From Ileibacterium valens (lineage in GTDB: Bacteria > Bacillota_I > Bacilli_A > Erysipelotrichales > Erysipelotrichaceae), in NCBI RefSeq assembly GCF_001945525.1, contig NZ_MPJW01000132.1, positions 1 through 43,262 of the forward strand: a DNA stretch of 43,262 nucleotides. The letters are read 5' to 3'. Below the pieces are notes generated by a model. It did no database searches, was not told the DNA's origin, and saw nothing but the letters and a program-made list of their open reading frames with translations. Numbering within the stretch: the first letter of the stretch is position 1; the number at the start of each line of letters is the position of its first letter. The position numbers and the translations under genes were made by a program. Positions 29,593 through 35,506 of the stretch are shown in pieces.

Positions 29593-32667
<3,075 letters not shown>

Positions 32668-32850: not shown

Positions 32851-32887
32851 AGGATCAGGGCTGAACAATCTCTGATCCTCTCTTTTT
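32851..32887 (+). terminator. Intrinsic terminator before the tnpB remnant
   Basis: AGGATCAG (32851-32858) and CTGATCCT (32872-32879) pair perfectly and are followed by CTCTTTTT. The stretch between the lacZ terminator and this hairpin holds no gene. Confidence 0.75.
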
Positions 32888-33019
32888 ATCCTGTTCTCTG
32901 CAAGAAGACCCAGCTTTTGAGCACAGCGAAAGCGGGGGACGAATTGCCTAGTTGGTCTATAAAATCACATGTGAGTTTAGTATTATGTTTGAGGGGATAT
33001 CTAACCAGGGCAAAGGATA

Positions 33020-34098
33020 ATGAACAAAGCTTATAAATTTAGGATCTATCCAGATAAAGAACAAAAAAATTCTCTTTGAGAAAACTTTCGGCTGTGTGAG
33101 GTTCGTTTACAACTATTACCTCGATATAAAGATTCCGCAGTATCAAATGGATCAATCCAGCTTGAACTATACTTGGTATGCTGATGATTTAGCGAAATTA
33201 TTGAAAACTGAAGATTATGCCTTTCTTAAAGAAGTTGACTGCATTGCGCTCAAGCAGTCACTTTACCATTTGGATAATGACTTTCAGGATTTTTTCAGAA
33301 ATCCAGCAATCGGTTTTCCAAAATTTAAATCAAAGAAAGCTAACCTGAAAAGTTGTACAACTCTATGGATCAATGGCAATGTTGCAATCAAAGACGATGT
33401 CATCAGGCTTGCTAAAGTAGGTCTTGTTAAAATCGAGCTGCATTGCCCAATTCCTTCGGATAAACTGAAATCTGTCACGATTAGCCAGAGTCCAAGTGAA
33501 GAATATTATGCAAGTATTTTGTTCGAGTATGAAAATCAAGCACACCAGCAGACGTCTCAAAAATCCATCAATTTGGTTCATTCAATGCCTGAACTATCTA
33601 AGGATCCTGATGGCAAGGAACCAAAATATCCAAGTTATTACTACGAGACTGAAAAGAAACTCAAACGAGAAAAACGGAAACTTTCCCGCATGGTGAAAGG
33701 CTCAAACAACTGGAATAAGCAGCGAATTAAAGTCGATCAAATTCATGAAAAAATGGAAAATCAACGAAAGGATTTTCTGTATAAACAGCCAAGGACTGAT
33801 AGCCAATGACAATGATTGAGGCTGTAAAGAAAATCAGAATAAGAATATTCTGGTTCAGTCTTTGTATTTTGGTCAATCTTTATCAGATAAGAATAGGCAA
33901 ACATTCAGATCTGTTATAGCTGCGGCAATGAGAATAGGGAAAAAATCGTATTTATAAGAGCCTGAGATTGTCCAGAGTATGGTGCTTTCCATAATTGAGA
34001 CATCAAAGCCGGATTCAACATCAGAAACAAAGAGATACGCTAACTCAGTACGCCATTAAGGCAAAATCATAAAACTATGACACATGGAGTTATCCTTT
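33020..34098 (+). pseudogene. Decayed IS605-type tnpB (OrfB)
   Basis: RNA-guided nuclease/transposase-accessory gene of the IS200/IS605 family, now dead. It starts properly at 33020 (AAAGGA upstream; MNKAYKFRIYPDKEQK, the OrfB N-terminal domain) but shifts frame in a run of seven A near 33065. The frame then continues FGCVRFVYNYYLD from about 33090 to 33809, including GFPKFKSKK. It shifts again at about 33790 (GLIANDND), passes SLYFGQSLSD, lacks about 30 residues of the catalytic region, and resumes with CYSCGNEN (33912) and DCPEYGAFHN, where zinc-finger Cys and Trp/Arg codons have become Tyr or stops. No tnpA and no clear element ends were found. A small hairpin (GCTTT/AAAGC at 32913-32933) may belong to the left end. 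Confidence 0.9.
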
Positions 34099-34222
34099 TT
34101 TTTCCATAGGTAAAGAAGTTAGGCATTTACACGATTGTGTATGAGTGTAAACGATTTCTTAAAGAGTTTTTTGCTAAATAATCCTTTCATCGTTCACCTC
34201 ACTCTTTTCTTGAAGTTTCACT

Positions 34223-34251
34223 TTGATACACTGTTAACGGAACTTTTTAAT
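34223..34251 (+). promoter_or_regulatory. Strong promoter of a structured RNA
   Basis: TTGATA (34223-34228) and TTTAAT (34246-34251) are separated by exactly 17 bases, each with five of six consensus bases. Transcription should start near 34258. Confidence 0.6.
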
Positions 34252-34255
34252 TGAA

Positions 34256-34446
34256 AAGCATCCACTTGGGTCGTGCAATCCATTCGGTCTGACTGACTGA
34301 AGAAGGAGTAATCCAGCACCGGGAATATAAGTTTTCTCTTTTTTTCTTCTCTTACCTACTCTACCTTCGCTTATATTCCTGATTTTGAAGACCAGCATCT
34401 AACCAATGCTTACCATATAATGAATGGGAAACCATTCTTTTTTTTT
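34256..34446 (+). ncRNA. Candidate structured RNA or attenuator leader upstream of trhP1
   Basis: About 190 nt between a strong promoter and a strong terminator with no coding frame. Nested pairings can be drawn by eye: AAGCA (34256-34260) with TGCTT (34407-34411), TTGG (34266-34269) with CCAA (34403-34406), GGTCT (34286-34290) with AGACC (34389-34393), and a perfect 10-base stem GGAATATAAG (34322-34331) with CTTATATTCC (34370-34379), capped by a 38-base pyrimidine-rich loop. CCATTC at 34280-34285 can pair with the left arm of the terminator (GAATGG, 34422-34427), an antiterminator-like alternative. It could be a cis-acting attenuator for the U32/proS genes or a stand-alone 6S-like small RNA. 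No known family was recognised. Confidence 0.45.
34422..34446 (+). terminator. Strong intrinsic terminator of the candidate RNA
   Basis: GAATGG (34422-34427) and CCATTC (34432-34437) with a GAAA tetraloop and nine T. It lies 140 bases before the next start codon. Two mutually exclusive small hairpins follow (GGATTG/CAATCC at 34459-34483; ATGAC/GTCAT at 34474-34488). Confidence 0.88.
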
Positions 34447-34588
34447 ATTTAAGACAATGGATTGCCAAGTGTGATGACAATCCGTCATGATAAATCAGGT
34501 TCGCCAGAAACACTGAATTGGAAGAATCATGTCTTCTGATTTTTTGCTGTTTAAATTAGAGATAAGAGACGAACCAGAAAGGAGCCAG

Positions 34589-35506
34589 ATGTTTAGAGTC
34601 AGTGCAAATTCAAAACAGGAACTCGAAAATCTGATAAATGCAAAAAGTGATGGGATAATCCTGGCTCTGCCTGAATTTTCCATCCGTCAAATCAGTTTTC
34701 TCGATCCAGAAGATTTAGAAAATACGGTTCAGAAGATTCATGAACATTCTCTTCTGGCTGCGGTTAATGCGATGAAAATGCTTGAAGAAGATGAAATCGA
34801 AGAAGCCGAAGAATTTTTAAAACTTTGCCAGTCTGCTGGTGTGGATGAAATCTATATTGCAGATGAAGGCTGGATTCAGCTTGCGCGCAAAATGGATCTG
34901 ATTGATCGATTAATCTTTCAGCCGGAGACATTAATGGTCAATAGCTATGATGCAAAGTTTTATCTTGATCAGGGATTGAAATCCGTCAGCATGGCCCATG
35001 AACTCACATTGGATGAAATCCTCTCCTGCGCCAGTGTTGCCGGTCCGATTGAGATTTTAATTCAGGGTTATTATTCCTGGATGTCTTCGAGAAGACCACT
35101 GTTGAGCAATTATTTTGAAGAAATCAAAAGCATGAATGAATCCGATCAGAGTGATCCTGAAGATTTAAAAAACAAGCTTTATGAAAACGAATCTTCAGAT
35201 AATCAGCTGTACTGGATTCAGGAGCAAAAGCGGGCTGGAAAGCTTCCTGTTATTGAAGATTCAAGTGGAACAACCGTATACAGTGATGAACCCATTTGTT
35301 CCTATGATGAAATTTCTTTGTTAAAGGAACATAGAATTAACCGATTTAGGATTGATACTCTCTTTGAAGATGATGAGTATGGTGTCAGACAGCTTGCCTT
35401 ATATCGAAATATTCTGAATCAAAAGCCGATAGAAGAATCGCATAAAAAGGGAAGCGATCATCTGTATTCGATGAAGACTGTGACACGAAAGGATCAGATG
35501 GTATGA
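34589..35506 (+). CDS. trhP1: U32-family protein, TrhP1/YrrN-like tRNA hydroxylation factor
   Basis: Smaller member of the U32 pair that, in B. subtilis (YrrN with YrrO), supports prephenate-dependent 5-hydroxylation of uridine 34 in tRNA. The 305 residues show the U32 TIM-barrel pattern (DGIILALPEF..., AAVNAMKMLEEDE, AGVDEIYIADEGW) but lack the cysteine-rich motif present in the larger partner. I chose the ATG at 34589, preceded by AAAGGAG, because MFRVSANS then aligns with the family's first strand; an ATG at 34529 would add 20 residues. Its stop overlaps the start of the next gene (ATGA), so the two are translationally coupled. The assignment to TrhP1 rests on gene order and size and is less sure than for its partner. 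Confidence 0.72.
   Translation: MFRVSANSKQELENLINAKSDGIILALPEFSIRQISFLDPEDLENTVQKIHEHSLLAAVNAMKMLEEDEIEEAEEFLKLCQSAGVDEIYIADEGWIQLARKMDLIDRLIFQPETLMVNSYDAKFYLDQGLKSVSMAHELTLDEILSCASVAGPIEILIQGYYSWMSSRRPLLSNYFEEIKSMNESDQSDPEDLKNKLYENESSDNQLYWIQEQKRAGKLPVIEDSSGTTVYSDEPICSYDEISLLKEHRINRFRIDTLFEDDEYGVRQLALYRNILNQKPIEESHKKGSDHLYSMKTVTRKDQMV

Follow-up and report, generated by a model that had tools for sequence, protein, structure and literature searches.

A stretch of about 190 nt on the plus strand of the Ileibacterium valens genome, situated between a dead transposase gene and the yrrN-trhP-proS genes, may be a gene or transcription unit for a stand-alone, lineage-restricted small noncoding RNA (sRNA), a prediction that we hold tentatively and at slightly less than even confidence. 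The sequence-only reading of this DNA had given first place to an antiterminator switch and second place to a stand-alone transcript resembling 6S RNA; the stand-alone transcript survives as the best reading, whereas the switch and the 6S identity do not. The transcript would start near position 34258 of the window (the whole 43,262-nt stretch analyzed, contig C258 of a genome whose 291 contigs total 2.74 Mb) and end at an intrinsic terminator at 34446. Its predicted fold comprises the terminator, small hairpins, and a 10- to 13-bp hairpin displaying a long pyrimidine-rich loop. If the RNA is active, it would most likely act in trans, its exposed pyrimidine loop pairing with purine-rich sites, e.g., ribosome-binding sites. 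We infer the transcription, 5′ end, function, and targets of this candidate RNA.

The plus-strand order at the locus is lacZ (29623-32667), a broken IS605-type tnpB element (32885-34089), the candidate, a yrrN-like U32 gene, trhP (yrrO), and proS; the TrhP of the window has 66% identity to a homologue from a Faecalitalea metagenome-assembled genome, which places the genome in the Erysipelotrichaceae. The tnpB gene is indeed dead, as had been claimed: the element is broken, and Pfam assigns it to OrfB_IS605. Two further copies in the genome, both partial, served for comparison (G000:C267:1-236 and C54:34512-34738; 87% and 72 to 79% identical), and one of them ends at a contig edge. Similarity among the copies begins at 32885 and stops at 34089, ∼170 bp before the predicted RNA start, which places the candidate outside the insertion sequence (IS). 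An IS605 omega RNA or right-end reading was rejected because the mapped IS right end, at 34089, precedes the candidate.

The terminator (34422-34446, plus strand) consists of a 6-bp stem with a GAAA loop, GAATGG-GAAA-CCATTC, followed by nine T residues (−6.7 kcal/mol). It had been described as a textbook example, and we likewise find it convincing. It does not belong to lacZ, since lacZ has a hairpin and T run of its own, read from the sequence at ∼32851-32888 (AGGATCAG...CTGATCCT, then CTCTTTTTAT). This likely lacZ terminator abuts the left boundary of the IS. The terminator at 34422-34446 serves no evident gene; there is no plus-strand gene in 34090-34422 ahead of it. Also as reported before, the region lacks a coding frame, with no plus-strand open reading frame (ORF) of ≥40 amino acids (aa) in 34255-34446.

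More generally, the features that had been picked out from the letters are present where they were placed, but the promoter, the strength of the fold, and one pairing, AAGCA/TGCTT, are weaker than proposed. The promoter-like pair TTGATA (34223-34228) and TTTAAT (34246-34251) lies on the plus strand with a 17-nt spacing and matches the consensus at 10 of 12 positions; the hexamer spacing predicts a transcription start near 34257-34259. It had been called near-consensus, but in the −10 element, position 2 of TTTAAT is occupied by T rather than by the key A. A standard, stricter promoter scan did not list this pair. By the laxer count, 0.19 matches of 10/12 are expected per 600-nt local shuffle, and five occur on the plus strand across the whole 43-kb window. 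For transcripts that begin at 34257, the ensemble gives the AAGCA/TGCTT pairing almost no probability, although it is present in the centroid structure of a slightly longer sequence.

The fold of 34255-34450 exceeds chance expectation only moderately: its z score is −2.38, with 2 of 200 dinucleotide shuffles as good, and z scores at least as low were obtained for 16 of 233 arbitrary 183-nt segments of the same window. One element, found both by folding and by a repeat search, is a hairpin on the plus strand at 34322-34379 with a pyrimidine-rich loop. The perfect 10-bp stem previously noted (34322-34331/34370-34379) is present and extends to 13 bp in the fold. In the ensemble calculation, the stem has a probability of 1.0 and the loop is predicted to be open; 35 of the 40 bases in 34331-34370 are C or T. 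Inspection of the loop sequence revealed no UCCC motif. A genome search for the complement of 34349-34369 with up to three mismatches returned only the locus itself and thus no candidate target.

A gapped inverted repeat, absent from the earlier description, brackets the unit. Its 5′ arm (CATCCACTTGGGTCGTGCAATCCATT, 34259-34284) and its 3′ arm with flank (AATGGATTGCCAAGTGTGATG, 34456-34480, past the terminator), both given on the plus strand and identified by repeat search and folding, the former also with shuffles, are complementary except for a bulge and one short gap: CATC.CACTTGG[GTCGT]GCAATCCATT (34259-34284) versus AATGGATTGC.CAAGTG.TGATG (34456-34480). With the repeat included, the fold of 34257-34481 reaches a z score of −3.86 (0 of 200 shuffles as good), and a one-gap Watson-Crick repeat of this quality arose in 5 of 5,000 shuffles; judged by energy alone, the repeat is less special, being equaled in 5 of 300 shuffles and by 32 regions of the window. 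According to the folding model, the helix between 34259-34284 and 34456-34480 can form only if polymerase reads through the first terminator. The helix and the terminator form together with a probability of ∼0.8 or more; because the terminator stays folded, the helix is not an antiterminator.

No homologue of the candidate emerged from the searches. DNA searches of 60 relatives, 273 + 268 genomes of the family, and 316 genomes of the order yielded only low-complexity or terminator matches of 18 to 43 nt; with long queries, two or three candidates were scored per genome, so that one such search alone would not exclude homologues. A covariance model built from the candidate as a single sequence (R2), a design that misses diverged RNAs, recovered only the candidate itself from 108 genomes; the sole other match (E = 0.05) is confined to the pyrimidine loop. 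No homologues were found in phages, in plasmids, or at the loci of relatives that we compared, and exact-pattern searches of IMG/VR gave chance matches with a 15-mer and none with a 24-mer. The candidate is thus likely absent from close relatives, as judged from genomes that included no other member of its genus. The comparison among relatives that had been proposed as a check therefore revealed no conservation among homologues within reach, but this outcome is also what an RNA restricted to the lineage would give.

The closest syntenic relative, G028, shares the order beta-lactamase-like gene, lacZ, yrrN, trhP, and proS. Its lacZ-yrrN gap (L137) contains neither a leader nor a terminator before yrrN; in place of the IS and the candidate, it carries a gene for a 112-aa predicted membrane protein on the opposite strand. 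A tblastn search of the window detected no remnant of this protein.

We favor an sRNA because a strong terminator that is not that of lacZ lies outside the IS and follows a stretch (34090-34422) free of plus-strand genes, because promoter-like hexamers stand at the right distance, and because the fold beats its shuffles, the loop is open, and G028 lacks the region. Counting against an sRNA are the lack of a homologue, the poor −10 element, a fold z score that is not unusual in this window, a loop without UCCC, and a genome without any other near-complement to 34349-34369.

The main rival, which we consider unlikely but which carries appreciable weight, is that there is no gene here: the region would be intergenic DNA beside a dead IS, either decaying or rearranged recently, in which the terminator is a leftover and the stems arose by chance. 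The failure to find a homologue in the searched genomes, the modest fold statistics, and the imperfect −10 element are all consistent with this explanation, as are the adjoining dead tnpB and the different gene found at this position in the syntenic relative. On the other hand, drifting DNA would not easily retain, within 225 nt, a terminator with a GAAA loop and T9, a 10-bp stem without mismatches, and a gapped inverted repeat of 16 nt.

Distinctly less probable is a leader of the yrrN-trhP-proS operon, either an attenuator or an unknown riboswitch, that controls read-through of the terminator. The region lies upstream of the operon on the same strand, and the left arm of the terminator has an alternative partner: CCATTC, which is present at 34280-34285 as the sequence-only reading had pointed out. 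The proposal that this pairing forms an antiterminator switch for trhP-proS fails on energetic grounds, since placing CCATTC on GAATGG costs 7.8 kcal/mol. Along the growing transcript, the probability of the antiterminator does not rise above 0.11 while the right arm of the terminator is still to be made, and it is 0.00 once the terminator is complete; moreover, a 6-base match is cheap in a leader of this length. By these calculations, an attenuator would be unlikely. A ligand could in principle shift the balance; nothing found here points to one. In a read-through transcript, the 5′ arm of the inverted repeat would pair with sequence downstream of the terminator, as a leader might, but this repeat and the terminator are not in competition. 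Among relatives, no such leader is found, G028 included; across 29 of them, the gene that precedes yrrN and the spacer differ from genome to genome. The absence of a T-box and of any known riboswitch at the locus, already suspected, is borne out by Rfam at the gathering threshold and at E values up to 10, where only spurious eukaryotic matches appear; the sole T-box is at 1916-2249. This T-box leader (109.9 bits) precedes valS, and the mechanically called valS ORF start, 2168, falls inside it, so the real valS start must be further downstream.

The distance to yrrN also argues against a leader. The start of this gene had been placed at 34529, but homologues align from residue 20 or 21 of the longer ORF, and the G028 yrrN begins with MFIVTVNS in agreement; the true start is therefore at ∼34589. 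The gene (34589-35506, plus strand; Pfam PF01136) thus probably begins with MFRVSANS after an AAAGGAG. The terminator is separated from the true yrrN start by 143 nt, which hold a promoter-like site of their own, TTGCCA-18-CATGAT (34462-34491, plus strand; 9/12, by consensus match only), possibly a separate yrrN promoter. On the side of a leader, a second terminator-like hairpin lies just ahead of yrrN (34518-34546, plus strand). It is weak, with 9 to 10 bp and few G-C pairs before its T run, and falls below the threshold of the terminator scan. It is enclosed in a folded stretch, 34498-34577 (−18 kcal/mol), which is closed by GGTTCG/CGAACC and lies directly before the yrrN ribosome-binding site. 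If yrrN has a leader, this stretch is possibly the real one.

We see little chance that the unit is a small insertion resembling a miniature inverted-repeat transposable element (MITE), with terminal inverted repeats at 34259-34480, that holds the terminator and hairpins by accident. In favor of an insertion, the unit is framed almost exactly by imperfect inverted repeats, G028 lacks the region, and the surroundings include mobile DNA. However, the arm pattern occurs at only two sites genome-wide, which are the two arms themselves; with the arms found nowhere else and the unit in single copy, a multicopy mobile element is not indicated. Nor is a target-site duplication visible, and one arm is interrupted by a gap of 5 to 6 nt.

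The same repeat would permit a more elaborate form of the sRNA, to which we assign a similarly slim probability: a new sRNA private to one genus of Erysipelotrichaceae in which termination decides the structure, the 5′ arm staying free upon termination and, upon read-through, closing a 20-bp helix with sequence past the terminator.

The chance that the candidate is a divergent 6S RNA is negligible. This identity drew on its length and on the lack of any Rfam 6S match elsewhere in the genome: the Rfam model (RF00013), which detects 6S in 88 of the 98 genomes searched together with relatives, finds nothing in this genome even at an E value of 10, an absence that would have favored the earlier 6S proposal. 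We built a lineage model (R1) from an alignment of the 6S cores from 27 members of the family, in which blocks like CCCACCT and ATCC are invariant. A search with R1 located a 6S RNA on another contig, on the minus strand of G000:C223:43825-43977 (L110; 83 bits, E = 1.2e−14); this RNA carries all the motifs of the family, and its apical hairpin is enlarged. The genome thus has an ordinary 6S RNA of the family type, which refutes the 6S reading of the candidate; the candidate itself scores at most 7.1 bits against R1 and lacks every motif invariant among the 27 relatives. Four further genomes (G003, G005, G032, and G072) behave likewise, their 6S RNAs being missed by RF00013 and found by R1. The more useful by-product of this analysis is that a lineage-built model finds the 6S RNAs that the Rfam model overlooks in this genome and in several relatives; another intergenic RNA should therefore not be named the 6S here simply because a 6S search has failed. 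The candidate, if transcribed, would be a further sRNA specific to its lineage, from a gut family that has received little study, and its general reach would be limited.

How the candidate relates to known systems can be summarized as follows. Like transcription attenuators and T-box leaders (RF00230), it has a terminator upstream of tRNA-related genes; unlike them, it lacks a T-box core, a competitive antiterminator, and a leader counterpart in relatives. It resembles 6S RNA (RF00013) in its length, its noncoding nature, and, if read past the terminator, its closing complementarity, but it has none of the conserved motifs. LhrC, RsaE, and FsrA are Gram-positive sRNAs that block Shine-Dalgarno sequences through CU-rich sites, with the UCCC motif as their hallmark (PMC4132741). 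In comparison with such orphan sRNAs of low-GC bacteria (PMC4132741), the candidate differs in having no UCCC motif, no sequence similarity, and a single copy; like them, it is short and noncoding, has an intrinsic terminator, and carries a hairpin with a C/U-rich loop predicted to be exposed.
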